Below, piece by piece: positions 2,253 through 22,862 of a stretch of 22,862 nucleotides of DNA. Under the pieces are notes generated by a model. The model had not been told where the DNA came from, searched no databases, and saw nothing but the letters and a program-made list of their open reading frames with translations. The position numbers and the translations under genes are program-made. Each line of letters opens with the position of its first letter. Position 1 is the stretch's first letter. The DNA is from Chytriomyces cf. hyalinus JEL632 (Eukaryota > Chytridiomycota > Chytridiomycetes > Chytridiales > Chytriomycetaceae), in assembly GCA_025435555.1 (NCBI GenBank), contig JAIWWG010000185.1, positions 1-22,862 on the forward strand, given 5' to 3'.

Positions 2253-2271
2253 ACTGAAAACGTTAGGGTTA
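2253..2271 (+). repeat. LINE junction 19-mer with telomere-type TTAGGG
   Basis: The sequence actgaaaacgttagggtta is identical to 13110-13128, at the matching junction ahead of LINE D. TTAGGGTTA occupies 2263-2271. Upstream flanks differ at the two junctions, and the next 12-15 bases also differ before C and D align again, so this is a junction sequence and not a random match. Confidence 0.6.
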
Positions 2272-2429
2272 TGGATTCTTTACAAAAACGAGTGCGGTGC
2301 TGGAAATTAGTCCAACAGCCCACCACAACAGCAACAGCTACAGCAACGTCAGACAGTGCTCTCAGTCCCGGCACTCTACTCAGGAACATCTAGGAAGCAC
2401 ATTGGTGCTCTTTCTGGAACAAAGCAACG
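2272..2429 (+). other. LINE C 5' leader (exon 1 / 5' UTR)
   Basis: This leader matches 13133-13290 in copy D closely, including a CAACAGC-rich segment. A short ATG frame present here is absent in D, so I read it as untranslated. It may contain an internal promoter, but no TATA box is evident. Confidence 0.5.
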
Positions 2430-2475
2430 GTAAGTGAGTGAGTTGTTGTTTACTAACTCCACACTCTCTACACAG
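2430..2475 (+). other. Intron-like sequence 1 in LINE C, 46 nt
   Basis: It has a GTAAGT donor, a perfect TACTAAC branch-point consensus at 2451-2457 and a CACAG acceptor, in the right order and at spacing typical of compact fungal introns. The counterpart in copy D (13291-13336) differs at one base. Splicing itself is not shown. Confidence 0.65.
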
Positions 2476-2744
2476 ACTCTCTTAAATCGAGTCGGATCGA
2501 TCTCAAACCACTCTGGTTGTGATCGCCGGCATCGAAAACCTTGTATCTGCGACAAAGGCGGCTGCCTATCGTCGCGCGTTCTCGTTTTACGTTGGTGTGT
2601 TGTGTGCTGTCAAAGTACACAATCACCAACCAACTCCATCAAAAACCGTCGGACACGCTCCAAATCACAGGAGCACGGTCTCGCGGACCCATCAAAACAA
2701 TCGACGGCGGTGATCACGGCGTTGTATCGAATTTGAGAGCGCCG

Positions 2745-2792
2745 GTGAGTGTTCTTTATTTCCTTACAACTCAACACCCCCTCTCTCCACAG
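2745..2792 (+). other. Intron-like sequence 2 in LINE C, 48 nt
   Basis: It has a GTGAGT donor, a CTTACAAC branch-like site and a pyrimidine tract ending CTCCACAG. The copy in LINE D (13605-13652) is identical. It is a multiple of three, sits in phase 0 relative to the frame ...LRAP / ATVPQTW..., and has no in-frame stop, so that frame stays open whether or not it is spliced. Confidence 0.6.
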
Positions 2793-5053
2793 GCGACAGT
2801 CCCCCAGACCTGGGATTTACTGTCTGACCCCTCTCGCGGTACCCGAATCCAACCGCGCTTTCGAAAACCGGCTGCCACGTTCGCTTCGCGCGCGGCTGGT
2901 TCTTCTTCTGTTTCTTTTTGTCCGGACAGTCCGGACTTTGCAACAAAAAGTGTCCAGTGGCGAACAATACGCACAGGCTGAGAAAGACCTGTGGAAACTC
3001 GCTCAAGGCCGTTTATTCTGTTTCATCTGTGGCAAAGAGAAGCTCTCAGCCGGCGGAACAGGAAATCCCAACGCGCTTGGAGTCAGAAGCACATCGCTTT
3101 GCTGTCGACACAACTCCACCTGTTCCAGACCACGTCTTCTCAGATTCTGCCTGAACCTGGGAAGTGATCCGAAACTCCAAGATATTGTGGAAAAAGCTAA
3201 AGAAGTTCACCAACTTTACTTAGATCTTCTTGCGGAGCGGAAAATGGCACCAAAAACTACAACACTTCCAGCTAAGAATCAAAAAGCAATTACATCATGC
3301 TTTCCCTCGACACTCACCCAAAACACAGGTACTTCATCGTCACAAGGAGTACCATGCACACAATCGCAATCTTCCGAGACTGGAGTCCCCGACTCCCTGG
3401 ATCCAGACGCTGTGTTGGTCAATGCCACGCAGACGTCGAAACTTGATTCACAGGAGATTATCTCGCACCAGACTCTCAGATTTCGGACTTTGATGCAGCA
3501 ATTGACTCAGCCATTGAATCACAAACTTCAACGATGGTGTCAAAAACACCATCACGTAAACGCGCACGACCTGTATCGACACCATCGCCTGCCCAGGTGC
3601 CACCATCGGCGGCAATGTCAGACATGGATTTTGACCTTGCTAACTGTCCAGCAAGTCCAACCCAGCCACAGGCATGGAATCACTCATGGATGAACGTGAT
3701 GGTGGTGACCACCAGCCACCGAAATCGCGGCGCTGTCGGAGATCTTTGGGATTAATGAAGCTAAGGCCAAAATCTTAACGATTTTTTTAACTCGAAAAAC
3801 TCGAAGTTAAAAATGACATACAGCCTCCCTCAAAAGTGAACTTCGAAAAAAAGACGCGATTATCAACAGCAAGCAGCAACGAATCGCGGATCTGGAGGCA
3901 CTGCTGGAGTCACGAATGGCTCCCAGTGACCACGAACTTGTATTCGGGCCCGCCGCCCGCCGCCAAAACCAACCACGCAACAGATGCAGCCACGGGGATT
4001 GAAGATGGGGAGAGGTGGGGAGTGCAGCGTAGCTCACGATCGAAGAGTGCTGCTCGGAGATCGTATGCGGCTGCCGCAGCGAAGCCAGCTGCTGGGGATG
4101 TTGGAGCTGGGAAAGGGAAGGAACCAGAAAGTGCACGCGCAGTTTCGAAACCACCCCACAAGCGTCAGCAGCACCACAGCCGCAGGCAACCCAAGCGCCT
4201 GAACTTCGAAGCAAAGGTCAGAGTGCGAAAATTGAATCATATCGCCAATATCCAGACAGCATCAAATGCGGATTTTATCGCAAACTTGAAACTGATCCAG
4301 GAAAATCGCGCGAATGCACAAACGGCACCAGCTCCTCGGGCGAGTGTCGTTTATCGAAATATTTTTATTGAAAACCCCCTCGGTAACAGCACAGATCTTG
4401 TCACAGATCCATTTGTCAAAATTCGATCCATCTTGTTTGATCTCTACAAAGTCCCCCGGTCTATTCGCGAGATCTCATTTGTTGGCGTCAAAAAGTCTGT
4501 GCTGGAGCTGTTCATCAGAGACTCGGATCTGGATGAAGCTGTCGCTAATCTGTCCAATCCGGGGAGTGATTTACCAGCAATTTTATTACCACTAACATCC
4601 TCGACACACCCAAACACAGAATCTTCGAGAAGCTGAGTGCAAGTCGCATGGAGCGGGGCAACCATCCTGCGTCGCGGAATCATGCTCGAGCGTGCGATGC
4701 GCCAGGGCGTGAGAGTGATGCAGGAGATTGCTCGTTCCAATGTCGACGAATTCACAGCATATCAGATTGAGGCTTGTGCAAGTCATATTTATTTGAAAAT
4801 AATTGAACTTCCAATTCCCAAATTCTGTCACCCGCACTAACTTTGAAGAGAAAAAATCCCAAGCACAGGAACGGCTGCCAGAAACTCCAGAACGGATCAA
4901 GTTTCCATTGTCGGTGCCATCTTCACGTGTTGGTTCGAGTACCTTGTCGCAGTCTGAGCTCATGGCACAGGCAAAGAATTTTGCTTATGCCAGTCTCAAA
5001 GCCCGGCTGCACAGGAAAATCTGGAATCTTAGCGCAGAATCCGGGGAGTCTCA

Positions 5054-5057
5054 ATGA
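5054..5057 (+). promoter_or_regulatory. ATGA stop-start overlap, ORF1/ORF2 of LINE C
   Basis: The ORF1 stop TGA (5055-5057) overlaps the ORF2 start ATG (5054-5056). The same arrangement occurs in copy D at 15916-15919. Such overlaps allow termination-reinitiation, as described for the insect telomeric LINE SART1; use of that mechanism here is inference. Confidence 0.6.
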
Positions 5058-13109: not shown

Positions 13110-13132
13110 ACTGAAAACGTTAGGGTTAGGGG
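13110..13132 (+). repeat. LINE junction 19-mer with TTAGGGTTAGGGG
   Basis: The first 19 bases equal 2253-2271, and the telomere-type tract here is longer (13120-13132). It separates the 3' end of LINE B from the 5' leader of LINE D. Confidence 0.65.
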
Positions 13133-13290: not shown

Positions 13291-13336
13291 GTAAGTGAGT
13301 GAGTTGTTGTTTACTAACTTCACACTCTCTACACAG
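13291..13336 (+). other. Intron-like sequence 1 in LINE D, 46 nt
   Basis: It has a GTAAGT donor, TACTAAC branch consensus and CACAG acceptor, all conserved with copy C and with a single base change. The 13133-13290 leader upstream matches 2272-2429. Confidence 0.65.
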
Positions 13337-13604: not shown

Positions 13605-13652
13605 GTGAGTGTTCTTTATTTCCTTACAACTCAACACCCCCTCTCTCCACAG
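13605..13652 (+). other. Intron-like sequence 2 in LINE D, 48 nt
   Basis: It is identical to 2745-2792 of copy C, while the flanking exons have several differences. It is phase 0 with no in-frame stop, as in C. Confidence 0.6.
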
Positions 13653-15915
13653 GCGACAGTCCCCCAGACCTGGGATTTACTGTCTGACCCCTCCGCGGTA
13701 CCCGAATCCAACCGAGCTTTCGAAAACCGGCTGCCACGTTCGCTTCGCGCGCGGCTGGTTCTTCTTTTGTTTTTTTTGTCCGGACAGTCCGGACTTTGCA
13801 ACAAAAGTGTCCAGCGGCGAACAATACGCACAGGCTGAGAAAGACCTGTGGAAACTCGCACAAGGCGTTTATTCTGTTTCATCTGTGGCAAAGAGAAGCT
13901 CTCAGCCGGCGGAACAGGAAACCCCAACGCGCTTGGAGTCCGAAGCACATCGCTTTGCTGTCGACACAATCCTACTTGTTCCAGACCACGCCTCCTCAGA
14001 TTCTGCCTGAACCTGGGAAGTGATCCAGAACTTCAGGACATTGTCGAAAAAGCTAAAGAAGTTCACCAACTTTACTTAGATCTTCTCGCAGAGCGGAAAA
14101 TGGCACCGAAAACCACAACGCTTCCAGCTAAGAATCAAAAAGCAATTACATCATGCTTTCCATCGACACTCACCCAAAACACAGGTACTTCATCGTCACA
14201 AGGAGTACCATGCACACAATCGCAATCCTCTGAGTTTGGAGTCCCCGACTCCCTGGACCCAGACGCTGTGTTGGTCAATGCCACACAGACGTCGAAACTT
14301 GATTCACAGGAGATCATTCTCGCACCGGACTCTCAGATTCTAGACTTTGATGCAGCAATTGACTCCGCAATCGAATCGCAAACCTCAACGATGGTGTCAA
14401 AAACGCCATCACGTAAACGCGCACGACCCGTATCGACACCATCACCTGCCCAGGCGCCACCATCGGCGGCCATGTCAGACATGGATTTTGACTTTGATAA
14501 TCGTCCAGCGAGTCCAACTCCAGCCACAGGCATGGAATCACTCGTGGATGAACGTGATGGAGGCGACCACCAGGCCACCGAAATCGCGGTGCTGTCAAGC
14601 ATTCTTGGGATCGATGAAGCTAAGGCTGAAAAACTTAACGATTTTTTCAACTTAAAAAACTCTAAAGTCAAAAAGGATATTACAGATGCATTGAAAAAGG
14701 AGATCAAAAAGAAAGACGCCCTGATTAAACAGCAGGAGCGCCGCATTGCTGAACTGGAGGCACTGCTGGAGTCTCGTGTAACTCCCAGTGACCGCGACAT
14801 TGTATCCAGACCACCACCCCCACCGCAGCCATCAGCACAGCAGATGCAGCCACGTGGACTGACAAAGGGACGTGGCGGTGGAGTGGCAAGACGTTCACGA
14901 TCAAAGAGTGCTGTTGTTGGCACTTACGCTGCTGCGGCAGCAAAGTCGGTCGTGGGAGTTGCTGAAGACGGAAAAGTGGCGGAACGCGAAAACGCGCGTG
15001 CAGCCTCGAAACCAAGGCAGCAGCAACATCAACGTCAGCCAGCTCAGCCACCAAAGCGCCTGAACTTCGAACAGAAGTCCAGAGTGAAAAAATTGGATCG
15101 TATCGCGAACGCTCAAACAGCAACAGGCGAAGACTTCCTGGCACACCTGAAACGCGTCCAGGAAGCCCGAGCCAATCCCACCTCTGAGCAGACCACCCGG
15201 GCGAGTGTTTCTTATAAAAACATTTTTATTGAAAACCCGCTCGGTAACAGCACGGATCTTGTTACAGATCCATTCTTCAAAATCCGGTCGATTTTGTTTG
15301 ATATCTACAAAGTCCCACGTACAGTTCGGGAGATTTCATTTGTTGGTATCAAAAAGTCGGTGCTGGAAATTTTCGTCAAAGACTCGGATCTGGAGGAAGC
15401 AATCAACGCCTTGTCCAATCCGGGGAGTGGTCTTCCAACTCTCTTTATTACGACTAACCTTCTCGACACCCCCAACACAGAAGACTGGAGCACGCAAATC
15501 CAGCAAGAGTCGAACGGTCGGTGATCTTGCGTCGTGGCATCATGCTTGAACGCGCAATGCGTCAAGGCATCACAGTGATGCAGGAGATTGCACGGTCTAA
15601 CGTGGACGAGTACATGGCCTTCCAAATTGAGGCCTGTGCTTGCCACATTTATTTCGAAAATAACTTGAATTTCGAGTATCCAAATTCAATTAACCGCGAC
15701 AACTTTCTTGAGAGAAAATCCCAAGCACAGGAGCGCTTACCAAGCACACCGGAACGGATGCCGTACCCAATCGAGATCCCACCCAAGCGAGTTGGAGCGC
15801 ACCAACTCTCACACGGGGAGCTTATGGCGCAAGCCAGAAACTTTCACCGTGCGAGTCTCAAAGTGCGACTCTTCCGCAAGATTTGGAACCTTAGCGTTGA
15901 ATCTGGGGAGTCGCA

Positions 15916-15919
15916 ATGA
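15916..15919 (+). promoter_or_regulatory. ATGA stop-start overlap, ORF1/ORF2 of LINE D
   Basis: The ORF1 stop TGA (15917-15919) overlaps the ORF2 start ATG (15916-15918). This fixes the ORF2 start and suggests coupled reinitiation. Confidence 0.65.
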
Positions 15920-17672: not shown

Positions 17673-17918
17673 GTTATCAATTAAAATCAATATCCCCACA
17701 GTGGGTAAGGTTATTGATTAATTGCTTGACTGGCTGGACATATTAGTCATACAAAAGTAGCAATAGAATACTTTTCCAAGTTGATTTCTATTTCTTCTTC
17801 TTCTGCTTATTTCTCTATAAAGATCAGAAGATAACTGCATGAAGTTGACAGCAGTGTGGGTTGAACCAGTGACCTGTGGGTCTTTGGTCGCGAACCTTAA
17901 CAACTAAGCCAGAATCAT
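17673..17918 (-). mobile_element. tRNA-derived SINE-like unit
   Basis: Read on the minus strand, TGGCTTAGTTGTTAAGG (17911-17895) matches a pol III A box and GGTTCAACCC (17867-17858) a B box. Their starts are 44 bases apart, as in a tRNA. The T stem does not pair well and no clean anticodon stem forms, so it is not a working tRNA. A roughly 130-base body, a hairpin (17719-17685) and an ATTGAT-type tail follow, ending where LINE D breaks off. It could instead be a tRNA pseudogene. The 5' limit is approximate. Confidence 0.5.
17685..17719 (-). repeat. Hairpin at the SINE-like 3' end
   Basis: AATCAATA (17685-17692) pairs with TATTGATT (17712-17719), and inside it CCCAC-A-GTGGG (17695-17705) forms a second perfect stem. 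In a SINE transcript this would be a stem-loop next to the 3' tail. Confidence 0.6.
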
Positions 17919-18250
17919 ATAAATTCCAAACAATTACTTTCAACCATATTTATGCTTGATCAGAGCAAGAATAGTTGAAATCATGTAGTGGAATAAGCTA
18001 TTGTCATCTACAAGTCTGCACCCTTTATAGAATACGAGTATTCGTGTATTCATTCCTTGTTATAGTATCAACTAGACGTTCACCTTACTCAATGTCATAA
18101 TTCATGCCCATATGTATTGAGGTTGGTGGAATGGTGAGGTGCGTGACTCTTCTTTATCTGCAGTAGAGAATAAGAGATGAATCAGGGAGAATTAACCTTT
18201 ATTGAAGTAAACAGTGCTCCATCACTTGAGACTGATATTCAACAATTTTA
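17919..18250. other. AT-rich unassigned spacer
   Basis: I find no open frame, domain or RNA here. Base composition is clearly more AT-rich than in the LINEs. A small palindrome GAATACGAGTATTC lies at about 18028-18042. Part of this may belong to the copia LTR, whose left edge I cannot define. Confidence 0.4.
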
Positions 18251-18699: not shown

Positions 18700-19534
18700 A
18701 TGTCTGACTCCGACGGTGCCTACAAATCGATCCCTGACGTTGATGCTACGCTGGCAAAGTAGCTTGTCTTCAAACTGAAGTTCAGGACCTGCTTGGAGGG
18801 CAGAGATCTTCTGTACATCATTGACAGAACTGCTGCAGAGGATAATATTGCTCCTACGAAGGAAACCGACGCTGCCAGGACACTCAGATTGGAACAACTA
18901 CGTGATAGACGAAAGAAGGATGCCCTGGTTCGATCCCACTTGATCAGCAAAATCGATTCATCAGTCCTGGGTCTTATTGGGGATCTACCAACTGCCAAGG
19001 AAATGTTCGATGCTCTGGGAGCTCAATTCAATCTGTCTACTGCTTCAACTTCAATGGCTCTTCTCAAATGGCTTCTGGAAACAAAATTCCGACCGGGAGA
19101 AGACATGTCAAAGCACCTGGCTTTGATGATTGACACTGCCAACATGATTAAGGCAGGAAATGCATTCACAATCGATAAACTGCTCATTGTGAGCATTCTG
19201 ATGTCACTAAAGATTTCACGCTGGAGATATCAAAAGACGGCTACTGGAACGTGCTACTGAGGTTGGCAAGGGCAAGTCCAGGAAACCGCATTCTGAGACT
19301 CCTACCGCATTTTACGTCGGTAGCAAACCTGGTAGTGGCAGGAAATGCTTTGCATGCAGTAAAGCAAACCATTACATCAAGGACTGTCGGAACAAGGCTG
19401 CTGTTGACCGTTACAAGTCCGAAAGAGCCAAGAAAGACTCTGGCAGAGAGTCTGGTTCAGGTGCCAACAAGGAAACAGGGAACTACGCGTTTTCAGCGTT
19501 CTCTGTGGAACAATCAGACCAAGAAGCGGGTGTC
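18700..19534 (+). pseudogene. Copia gag, with early stop and frameshift
   Basis: ATG 18700 opens 20 codons (MSDSDGAYKSIPDVDATLAK) before TAG 18760-18762. The same frame then continues through a typical copia capsid-like region (LVRSHLISKIDSS, AKEMFDALGAQF) to about 19205. One frame change later it reads RRLLERATE and a zinc knuckle CFACSKANHYIKDC (19346-19387, CX2CX4HX4C), then a Ser/Gly-rich linker. It ends where the inserted TIR element starts, in the codons for QEAGV. Gag packages the element RNA into virus-like particles in intact relatives. The early stop and the shift mean this copy is inactive. Confidence 0.85.
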
Positions 19535-19595
19535 CTTTTTAGCTTGCTGTAAAGCTAGAGCAATTTTTCTCCGTAACACTTTTTTTCCCGCCGCT

Positions 19596-19662
19596 ACAGG
19601 AAACACGCTAGCTTCCTGACACAGGAGGATCACTTATTGTTCCTGCTGTGACAGGAAACACG
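19596..19662 (+). repeat. Subterminal CAGGAA/TTCCTG repeats of the TIR insertion
   Basis: acaggaaacacg occurs at 19596-19607 and 19651-19662. Between them are TTCCTG and CAGGA motifs in both orientations, including TTCCTG-N6-CAGGAA. Dense subterminal motifs of this kind often bind transposase; that role is inferred. Confidence 0.55.
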
Positions 19663-19840
19663 GGAGTTTCTGTGCCAACTGAAGTATTTTCGTACTTCAA
19701 GTTCTGTATAATAAACACCAGTTCAAAAACCAAATACATCCCATTATCCCCATCCTCAGTAATTCATGATTGCCTTTACAAAACTGCTGAACGGCAATGC
19801 ACCATTGCCCTTCACAGAATTTTATCTGCTATTGTATCCG

Positions 19841-20293
19841 GCGTTTTGAAAGATGGCAGATTCTGTTACGGAACCTGCGTTTTAAAAAACGGCAGATTCC
19901 GTTAAGTGAACCTTTAAAACGCGGGTTCCCTCAACAGAATCTGCGGTTTTTTACCCGCGTAAGTGTTGGACAGGTGCAGTTAACACAGATTTCTGTGACC
20001 GGACAGGCGCAGTCTTCTTGATTGTTTAATTTGAGGTAGAAATCCTGGAGGAAACCACGGATGAACTTGTGCCAGCGTCACTAGACCACTTGTAAGTTTG
20101 AAACATCAGGGTTTACGAGGGCACACTATGAATCCGTCGAACTCTGGTTGTATGAATGCACTCTAAAAACAGGAAAAAAAATGGGACAGAATCGGGACAG
20201 AATCGGGACATAAACGGGACACGAAAAAAGTGGGCGAGGACATTTATATGAAATCTGCTGTAAGGGAACCCGCGCGTTTTTAAAGACGGCGGA
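19841..20293. repeat. Family of about 37-bp GCGTTTT...GGCAGATTC units, partly inverted
   Basis: Unit 1 (19841-19876) and unit 2 (19877-19913) are tandem. A third copy is inverted at about 19916-19958, and a fourth in direct orientation lies at about 20251-20293. Units 2 and 3 could pair as a hairpin with a stem near 30 bp around the loop tttaaaacgcg. Core motifs are GCGTTTT, GGCAGATTC and GGAACC. Confidence 0.7.
20183..20222 (+). repeat. 11-bp tandem repeat gggacagaatc
   Basis: The unit gggacagaatc occurs twice exactly, followed by a variant gggacataaac and a partial gggacac. Confidence 0.85.
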
Positions 20294-20324
20294 TGGGATT
20301 GTCCACCGAGCATGGCTGATATTT

Positions 20325-20975
20325 GTTATATTGACTATGTAGAACTGTACCATCCAATCAAAACCAAAGGCAAAGATGTTGATCATTGGGTTTAAAACTC
20401 TTTGTCTGAAAGGAAGGTCCTCATCATAACTGGATGTCAGCTACCTAATCTGGCAAGACCTTTGAGCGAGGATGAATTGATCATCTACTACGAAAGTTAG
20501 TTAATTCTGTTCAAGCCCCATCATTCACTAGACGGTCTCCTGTTTCATCCAGGTATGCCAAAGGATCTCTCATAAGATCTGAAGTTCTTGAACGGTGGTG
20601 TTTTGAAGGGACCAAGGGTGCGTCCAGCTTTGCATTCGTCAAGGAGGTTCTTGGTAAATTTCTCCGGGAATTGAAGCGCAATTTTAGCATTGGGTCCGAT
20701 TTTTTGTGAACGTGGGCCAGAGTAACCAACATCAACTCCATACTTTATTGCATTGACAACATCACAAATTAGAGCTTGGTTGGGGTAGCCAGAAAAAACC
20801 TTTGCCAAACAGTGGCATCAAGGGGGGACTTGGGGAGATGTAAAGAAGGGTGGCTTGAAATAAAAGAGGCCAAAGGTGGCCCTGAGGAAAGTGGCTGAGA
20901 AAGGTTGGTGTTGGGTTGAGGTGGAGGTGTGGTGTTGATTGGGAGCACTGAAGCAGATGGAGTAGATGAAGTCAT
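20325..20975 (-). pseudogene. DIRS-like reverse transcriptase fragment, antisense
   Basis: From the right end it reads a Pro/Ser-rich stretch, then SPLDATVWQRF. After a frameshift in an A6 run (about 20793-20798) it continues NAIKYGVDVGYSGPRSQKI, FPEKFTKNLLDECKAGR and LGPFKTPPFKNF. This resembles the block GFDIGY-GPR ... GPF-PPFPNFR that precedes the RT palm in DIRS/tyrosine-recombinase retroelements. Another frame gives ETGDRLVNDGA, like the SVND motif, and further left INIFAFGFDWMVQFYIVN resembles the block before the LPFG motif. Stops and shifts are frequent. No catalytic block is preserved. It sits wholly inside the TIR insertion, so it was captured or inserted there. The family call is from memory of the motif. 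Confidence 0.5.
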
Positions 20976-21181
20976 CTCTCTTTCTTATGCAAACAAGTTC
21001 CGGCCAACATCATCAACAGTTGTAGAAATGTTGAGACTCATTGACAAAGTTGAGATGCCACCTTACGCTTCTTCTCGCATGAGATCTGCTTTTCTGTCCT
21101 GGACTAATGAGCAGAAACACTATGGCTCTTCATTACTAGAATGATAAAATACTTTCATGTCATAATATCGTTTATGTATAT
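20976..21181. other. Unassigned right part of the TIR insertion
   Basis: A 71-codon plus-strand frame (20929-21144) overlaps the antisense RT fragment at its left end. Its right half (SYANKFRPTSSTVVEMLRLI) looks protein-like, but I do not recognise it. The last 40 bases are AT-rich and lead into the TIR. Confidence 0.3.
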
Positions 21182-21192
21182 AAGCTAAAAAG

Positions 21193-22862
21193 GTCCAGGC
21201 GTACCACCGTACGCACCCCTAGTCTGGTACAAGGATGCAGGTGCTTCCAGGCACTACACGTTCCAGCGCAAAATTCTGAGCAACTACCGACCAGTGCAAG
21301 ACTCTGTGCAGCTTGCAGACAGGAGTTCTCTTGAGATTCAAGGTGTTGGAAGCATCACCTGCAAGACTTCTGAGGGAAACACTGTTACTCTTCAGGAGGT
21401 GTTTCATGTCCCCAAGATGAAGGTCAATCTTCTTTCCACTGCGCAATTGGACAAGAAGGGTATTGAAGAACACTGTCTGAACAGTGTCACGACTTTCAAG
21501 CACAAGGGGAACACAATCTTCACGTCCAAACGCGTTGGAAACCGCTGGATCATGAACTGGCAGGTTCAGAATGCCGCTGCCAGCTCAAATAACGCGTATT
21601 TAGTTGCTGACAAGCTGTGGCACCGACGGTTCTGCCACATTGGCTATTCCACACTGAAGCAAGTAGCTCAACATGTTCATGGAATGAGCTTTGGTAAAGA
21701 CTCCCATGACCATGAGACCTGTGAAGCCTGTACTCTCGGGAAAGCACAACGTAAGGTGTTCTCTCCAACTGGAAATCACATGCTAAACATCCAATGGACC
21801 TGTTGCATCTAGATTTCAACATTGTGAACATTCCTGGTCGAAATGGCGAGCTAGCAGTACTTGGAATGACTGATGACCACTCAAACATGCGGTTCATGTT
21901 CCCAATGAAGCGGAAATCCAGCCGCGACGTTGTGGAAGTCCTTAAAAGCTGGCTACCTTGGGCTGACCGCGTCACAGGCCGCATGGTAAAGGCTTTTAGG
22001 CATGGAGATGAAAAGGAACTGACTTTGGGTCATTTCAAGGCTTACTGTGACGAGCATGGCATTGAGCAGCAGATGACTGTGCCATATGAACACGAGCAGA
22101 ATGGCACTGCAGAGGTCACGAATCGCGTAATTACCACTCTGGCACGAACTACACTCATTGAGAGCGGTCTACCAAAGAGCTACTGGCCAGACGCGATTTT
22201 GACAGCTACCTTTTTGCCAACAGGAGCATGGCTCCAGACAAGTGTGCTACCTGTGTGGAAGAGTTCACAGACGTCAAACCCGACGTTTCCATGCTTAGAG
22301 TGTTTGGTAGTCGCTGCTGGGTCAAGGTCCCAGTTGAGAAAACCGGTGGGAGCCACAAACTTGATCCAAGAAGTCTCCCAGGACGATTTCTGCGTTATGA
22401 GAACTATGGTAGTGCTTACCGTGTTCTGCTGGACGACAAACGCGAGGTCGTTGCTACCAGTATCATGTGGGATGAAGGAGCTACCGGTAGACATGCAGAA
22501 GTACCGGAAAACATGTCGTTTGAGCGAGCTAGAAGCTCTGAAGTGCTGACAGCTCCAGAATTCGATTCTGACTCTGAGGATGATATTCCAATCCCAGAAG
22601 TCATAACGGTTCAAGAACCATCCCTGAAGTTCCAACGGTTCCAGAACGCGTACAGCAAGCTCCTGCGGTGCCAGAACCACCGCCACAGACTCATGACAGT
22701 GACAGTGAGTTTGACCAAGACATGCCAAGTACACCCACCTTCCCTGCGGCCCCAGCGAATCAGCGTCCCCCAGGTGAATGGTGGAAGCTGGACAACAGGA
22801 AGAACGTGCATTACGCGTTATGACCATGGATGCAGCATTGCAAGGTCCAGATGCTCCAAAAT
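21193..22862 (+). pseudogene. Copia pol: protease, GAG-pre-integrase, integrase, start of RT
   Basis: The protease active-site motif reads DAGAS (21234-21248) where DSGAS is usual; it continues VQLADRSS and VFHVPKMKVNLLS. GAG-pre-integrase has LWHRRFCHIGYSTL and CEACTLGKAQR, the HHCC zinc site. A frameshift near 21790 leads to integrase: LLHLDF (first Asp, 21812), then FRHGDEKEL, where the second catalytic Asp position is Gly (22004), then NGTAEVTNR with the Glu at 22112, giving the usual X35 spacing. The frame changes near 22220 (KPDVSMLRVFGSRCWVK) and near 22610 (PPGEWWKLDN). A last shift after 22820 gives MDAALQGPDAPK, the usual entry to copia RT. The window ends there. The copy is inactive. 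Confidence 0.88.

Follow-up and report, generated by a model that had tools for sequence, protein, structure and literature searches.

Intron-like leader segments and a putative AUG-less ORF1 start in telomere-associated LINEs of a Chytriomyces-like chytrid

Results

The leaders of two LINE copies (LINE C and LINE D) in a 22,862-nt stretch of DNA (the window, which is the entire contig C95) each carry two intron-like segments, of which the first is probably a splice-competent intron and the second a weaker candidate. The explanation that best fits the data as a whole, to which we give a probability of about 55% from sequence comparisons, is that segment 1 would be a leader intron, that unspliced RNA would be the template for reverse transcription, and that ORF1 would be translated from both a non-AUG and an AUG start. 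The genome searched comprises 37.8 Mb in 242 contigs, and the window contains the following features.

2262–2271, plus strand: telomere-type repeat GTTAGGGTTA, which separates LINE A from the 5′ end of LINE C; other copies have similar junctions
2430–2475, plus strand: segment 1 of LINE C, a putative 46-nt 5′ UTR intron (GTAAGT..TACTAAC..ACACAG)
2745–2792, plus strand: segment 2 of LINE C, 48 nt, intron-like but weaker, with canonical signals confined to family I
2950–3243, plus strand: N-terminal zinc-domain part of ORF1 in LINE C, 98 codons, ahead of any ATG, with GTG at 2950 as candidate start
3244–3246, plus strand: first ATG after the leader of LINE C, in frame with the zinc domain (MAPKTTT); the annotated start in a Chytriomyces hyalinus relative
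5054–5057, plus strand: ATGA, overlap of ORF1 stop and ORF2 start, LINE C
13119–13131, plus strand: telomere-type repeat at the 5′ end of LINE D
13291–13336, plus strand: segment 1 of LINE D
13605–13652, plus strand: segment 2 of LINE D
13807–14099, plus strand: zinc-domain part of ORF1 in LINE D, first ATG at 14100; frameshifted in the window contig, open in the C10 copy
15916–15919: ATGA, overlap of ORF1 stop and ORF2 start, LINE D

Two-ORF LINEs stacked at telomere-type repeats

The element that carries the segments is a two-ORF, APE-type LINE. It sits at telomere-type repeats in the genome of a Chytriomyces-like chytrid, where it and other LINEs follow one another head to tail. The N-terminus of LINE D ORF2 matches the endonuclease domain PF14529 (E = 1.6e-9), which is of the exo/endonuclease-phosphatase type and places the element with the APE-type LINEs. 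The reverse transcriptase domain PF00078 was found in a 46% identical relative, the scanned ORF2 of LINE D itself being cut short. Repeats of the GTTAGGG type lie at the 5′ junctions of most LINE copies and point to insertion at telomere repeats, the chromosome ends themselves being outside this evidence. ORF1 has two public relatives, both annotated in Chytriomyces hyalinus, one 87% identical over 69% of the query and the other 76% identical over 68%; on this basis the host is probably a Chytriomyces-like chytrid.

Positions 54224–78772 of contig C10 match the window (1–22862) at 99% identity, with 95 substitutions and 146 gap bases. The two contigs are the same region present twice, and their LINE copies are non-independent. 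We note that this duplication, with its many small gaps, is probably a haplotig or a low-quality duplicate. The frameshift decay of the window LINEs may partly be contig error, because the C-type copy on C10 has both ORFs open (745 codons for ORF1 and 1230 for ORF2, stop to stop). Both are likewise open in the family II copies on C92 and C137 (748 and 1230 codons).

Outside the window, family Y LINEs on C66, C48 and C125 are arranged head to tail with a period of 5451–5452 bases. Within it, a repeat at 17674–18248 cuts LINE D at about 17672; LINE copies on C4, C203 and C229 are flanked by this repeat too. Judged by eye from translations, positions 18700–22862 are what is left of a copia-like LTR element, with a gag zinc knuckle and integrase-like frames.

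Segment 1 combines three splice signals

The host reference consisted of 28 introns hand-picked, a choice that may favour consensus sites, from 42 exon gaps at 10 chaperonin gene places; the chaperonin search gave matches above the cut-off on 12 contigs. These introns are 43–88 nt long (median 64), and 14 of the 28 have a CTRAY branch motif. The donor plus acceptor score is 14.3 for segment 1 and 13.9 for segment 2, with host introns ranging from 6.6 to 19.8 (n = 28); segment 1 lies in the middle of this range, and the segments are host-like in both score and length. Eight pairs on the plus strand of the window score at least 13.3, four of them being the two segments in the two copies. Shuffled leaders contain a mean of 0.23 such pairs, with the best pair at 15.6 at the 95th percentile, and the reverse strand of the leader has one donor–acceptor pair scoring 15.1. 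By donor and acceptor scores alone, both segments are within the chance range.

It is the added TACTAAC and the conservation, not these scores alone, that make segment 1 convincing. The motif lies at 2451 in LINE C and at 13312 in LINE D, and GT donor, branch motif and AG acceptor are at host-like spacing. On the plus strand of the window, the pattern GTRAGT..TACTAAC..YAG occurs only in the two copies of segment 1 (four overlapping starts at 2430, 2434, 13291 and 13295); it is absent from the minus strand of the window and from all 500 dinucleotide shuffles of the 720-nt leader. Between families I and II, 41–42 of the 46 bases of segment 1 are identical (42/46 for C10b and C137), versus 397/540 (73.5%) for the exonic leader (exon 1, exon 2 and the rest) of C10b and C137 (Fisher p = 0.007). 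Family II keeps GTAAGTGAGTGAG and ACACAG, with TATTAAC replacing TACTAAC. Together, these signals suggest that segment 1 is probably a splice-competent intron of the host type.

The first-pass annotation of this DNA had stressed conservation of the segments despite decay elsewhere. The identity is real, one base differing between the window copies in segment 1 and none in segment 2. It is nevertheless unexceptional between the C and D types: in C5 versus C203, identity is 97.8% for segment 1 and 97.9% for segment 2, and 97.4%, 95.2% and 98.1% for exon 1, exon 2 and the remaining leader, while the decay itself is partly suspect given the open C10 copy.

A quite possible alternative, short of probable, is that segments 1 and 2 are never spliced and are conserved promoter or other cis leader sequences that resemble introns. 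The whole leader is conserved between families (70–78% identity versus 55–58% in codons) with no coding signal, the non-signal bases of segment 1 are likewise conserved, no copy without segment 1 was found, and donor–acceptor pairs of like score arise in shuffles at the rate given above. Such sequences would, however, have to account for a donor, a TACTAAC-type branch and an acceptor at host-like spacing, which none of the 500 shuffles produced, and for the presence of all three signals in family II.

Segment 2 is a weaker candidate

Both segments had been described in the first-pass annotation as carrying complete splice signals. The lengths of 46 and 48 nt, their places in LINE C and LINE D and the TACTAAC of segment 1 stand, but segment 2 lacks a consensus branch site. 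Its donor is GT in family I and GG in family II, where the GC donor two bases on scores 0.2 versus a host minimum of 3.3. Because of this donor, segment 2 would be a family I feature at most, and the idea that it is an equal partner of segment 1 was rejected. Its identity between C10b and C137 is 72.9%, and in C203 the donor is GTGGGT, which places the pair below the 13.3 threshold. In sum, the wider alignment supports segment 1 through family II and weakens segment 2, whose signals are not conserved in related copies.

A hairpin, GACAG..CTGTC, lies just after segment 2 (window region 2746–2794) and is kept in both families, with a weak z-score. Within segment 1 and immediately 3′ of segment 2, predicted hairpins have z-scores of −0.24 to −2.21, which are unconvincing, and a search of Rfam gave five matches up to E = 5, all far under the gathering scores and none within the segments.

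Inserted copies retain the segments

An element that moves through spliced RNA would be expected to lose its introns. Searching the genome with window positions 2380–2860 found leader copies at 11 places including those of the window: seven of family I (two in the window, two on C10, and one each on C5, C203 and C4), three of family II at 76% identity (C137, C92 and C198), and a 70% remnant on C229 whose match starts within segment 1. The C4 copy is 5′ truncated and begins downstream of segment 1. Segment 1 is fully spanned by nine of the 11 copies and kept in all nine, which amount to seven placements when C95 and C10 are counted once; three copies that carry the segments have both ORFs open (C10a, C92 and C137). 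The spliced segment 1 junction, allowing two mismatches, gave six matches in the genome, all of them unspliced acceptor sites, and the spliced segment 2 junction matched two unrelated places, versus seven for a reversed control pattern. Intron-less inserted copies, the equivalent of L1 SpIREs and proposed as a check in the first-pass annotation, were searched for in the genome and none was found.

Since both segments are still present in inserted copies, reverse transcription appears to have used unspliced RNA, as had been proposed, unless the segments are never spliced at all. By our own arithmetic, seven unspliced placements out of seven only bound the fraction p of insertions from spliced RNA to below about 0.35 (95%).

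The introns would also persist if copies had multiplied as DNA, by recombination between arrays, and were never exposed to reverse transcription. Such a history would suit arrays that are tandem and head to tail, a region that is present twice (C95 and C10) and Y units that recur at a 5452-base period. The seven placements, however, differ in their upstream neighbours and in their telomere-type-repeat 5′ junctions (e.g., GTTAGGGTTATGG, GTTAGAGTTAGGGG, GTTAAGGTTAGCGG and GTTAAGGTTAGGGAGAG), which argues for separate insertions, and 5′ truncation of the C4 copy also speaks against recombination. We regard multiplication as DNA as unlikely.

The leader has no coding signal and no ATG

Long open frames are present in the leader, but as a chain of coding exons it was rejected, its mismatches having no codon-position bias anywhere. 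In the zinc-domain frame, the mismatches between C10b and C137 at the three codon positions are 10/9/7 in exon 1, 24/26/22 in exon 2 and 16/14/15 in the rest. A phase 0, stop-free frame does run through segment 2, as reported from the window alone; it differs from the ORF1 frame, in which the last in-frame stop is downstream of segment 2 (and segment 1) in all four copies tested. Passage of translation through segment 2 with or without splicing is not supported, given this stop and a leader with neither codon-position signal nor ATG.

These data bear on the first-pass interpretation that splicing gives ORF1 an mRNA of its own and thereby sets translation apart from transposition. The idea has an LTR precedent in the spliced, Gag-only RNA of barley BARE1 (PMC3735527). 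ORF1 coding, however, begins 3′ of both segments with the frame closed in between, and because the ORF1-frame stop is downstream of both, removing either segment would leave the ORF1 protein unchanged; no protein would be altered. A separate ORF1 mRNA is, in our judgement, quite improbable. The earlier observation is thus partly confirmed and its interpretation partly supported, the unspliced template being the part that stands.

In the stretch that begins 60 nt inside the element and runs up to the first ATG, all three frames are free of ATG in nine copies (leader plus zinc domain, 934–952 nt) and in the C4 copy (596 nt). Shuffling predicts 6.8–10.7 for the nine copies and 4.2 for C4, and zero-ATG shuffles number 0/400 for each of the nine and 2/400 for C4. 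The complementary word CAT (ATG on the opposite strand) is present 6–14 times per copy in the same span, and four times in C4. ATG does occur within the first 30 nt of some copies, at the telomere junction, and 3′ of the first ATG it reappears: ORF1 of C5 has 29 in 1821 nt.

Families A and Y share the AUG-free layout of leader and zinc domain, family A leaders being intron-free. The survey covered one of 19 Y-like places (C66), where 669 nt without ATG (0/1000 shuffles) are followed by 25 in the next 884 nt, and left out C50 (family A), C166 and C112. The family A copy on C10 has 439 nt without ATG (6/1000 shuffles reach zero), and those on C94, C199 and C210 have none from the element start to the post-domain ATG, C210 having one at the junction; an older, degenerate copy on C203 has two out-of-frame ATGs in the zinc domain. 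With a synonymous-codon control restricted to the domain, the probability of no ATG was 0.085 for family I, 0.074 and 0.034 for family II, 0.082 for family A and 0.0008 for family Y. Given the protein sequence, ATG avoidance inside the zinc domain is significant by itself only in family Y.

A zinc domain encoded upstream of the first AUG

The 98 zinc-domain codons that precede the first ATG are under coding constraint. Mismatches by codon position are 41/30/59 for C10b/C137 and 3/0/16 for C5/C203, and a similar third-position bias is found after the first ATG (42/29/59 and 3/2/17). Such constraint upstream of the first AUG is expected of a non-AUG-initiated N-terminal extension. Upstream of AAAAGTGTC[CT], families I and II differ by an indel and in-frame stops, so coding would begin about at the GTG of this sequence. 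The candidate GTG has an A at −3 in families I and II, and the context of the first AUG is AAAATGG. For family A, ATT is a possible start; none was identified in family Y. We infer that ORF1 is made as a long protein by non-AUG initiation, with GTG as candidate, and as a shorter one from the first AUG.

Six domain sequences from four families share C24, C27, C52, C58 and 12 other invariant positions, and AlphaFold2 run on the alignment of these six predicts a fold (pLDDT 89.3, pTM 0.81) whose first helix spans residues 3–18. A PDB search with this predicted fold gave 36 matches at a limit of E = 10. None had E ≤ 0.001, and the few zinc ribbons (TFIIS) among them were not significant. None of 123 candidate public protein relatives of ORF1 residues 1–98 reached E = 0.001, and Pfam assigned no family to ORF1 (best Med28, E = 0.047, under its cut-off). 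In the annotation of the Chytriomyces hyalinus relative P0007, the protein starts with MAPKTTT at the first ATG and the zinc domain is left off.

An AUG exactly at the coding start, and in frame, could also be created by a long splice that joins a GTGAGT donor within segment 1 to the AG acceptor in AAAAGTG. It is feasible in four of four copies tested, and the three nested donors of GTAAGTGAGTGAG are invariant. The sites nevertheless score poorly (donors 2.5–3.9 versus 3.4–9.3 in the host; acceptors −0.3 in family I and 2.6 and 5.3 in family II, versus 1.7–11.8), the intron would be about 511–519 nt long versus 43–88 nt in the host, and neither family A nor family Y offers a pair of this kind in which both sites exceed a score of 2. 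We rejected this splice as very unlikely.

Discussion

Under the reading we favour, with segment 1 as a splice-competent leader intron and ORF1 translated from two starts, reverse transcription would copy full-length unspliced RNA. Any spliced RNAs would found no lineages owing to loss of conserved leader sequence, as has been reported for human L1 (SpIREs). Ribosomes would scan from the cap over the AUG-free leader and zinc domain; part of them would make the zinc-domain ORF1 protein by starting at a codon other than AUG (in families I and II, GTG), and the remainder would make the shorter ORF1 from the first AUG.

A broader proposal, which we put forward tentatively and with some doubt, is that at least four families of telomere-stacked LINEs in a single chytrid produce two ORF1 forms from one RNA, a long one that includes the conserved zinc domain and begins at a non-AUG codon and a short one beginning at the first AUG, AUG having been removed over about 440–970 nt upstream for scanning to both; in two of these families, a splice-competent intron whose retention is required might tune scanning or RNA fate. 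As the intron-free leaders of family A show, this type of LINE can do without a retained intron.

A LINE with a conserved splice-competent leader intron would be a natural test of how a template is kept apart from spliced RNA. With its AUG-less zinc domain, the LINE would provide a clear-cut example of non-AUG initiation in such an element, and gene callers would miss a conserved part of ORF1, as in the Chytriomyces hyalinus annotation. The literature searched, with most subscription journals outside it, contained no LINE with a retained leader intron in chytrids and no AUG-less ORF1.

TRAS and SART of the silkworm are APE-type LINEs at telomere repeats, in which the ORF1 stop overlaps the ORF2 start, and the chytrid LINE resembles them in all three respects. 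We know of no AUG-less ORF1 start in TRAS or SART. Stop–start coupling (reinitiation) has been described for SART1, which the ATGA overlap at 5054 recalls (PMC5972666). FoTeR and MoTeR are also fungal LINEs at telomere repeats, but they have a restriction-like endonuclease, unlike the APE-type domain found here, and the word intron is absent from the main text of the paper that describes them (PMC12857005).

Among intron-keeping retroelements, the chytrid LINE is joined by Penelope-like elements, some of them telomere-associated, for which an unspliced or antisense template has been proposed; their endonuclease is of the GIY-YIG type, unlike that of the chytrid ORF2 (PMC3846280). BARE1, in which spliced and packaged RNA are kept separate, shares the class of mechanism, i.e., splicing and retrotransposition through different RNA pools, but it is an LTR element whose splice ends are inside the polyprotein, whereas both chytrid segments are untranslated (PMC3735527).

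The nearest known case for leader introns is human L1, in which splice sites of the 5′ UTR give spliced, dead-end copies, the SpIREs (PMC5860796). Such spliced copies exist in the genome for L1, unlike the chytrid LINE, for which none was found and which differs further in its 46–48-nt putative introns and its putative non-AUG ORF1 start. As in L1, the splice signals of the LINE 5′ UTR are kept by most copies, and the leader would be conserved regulatory sequence (PMC5860796).
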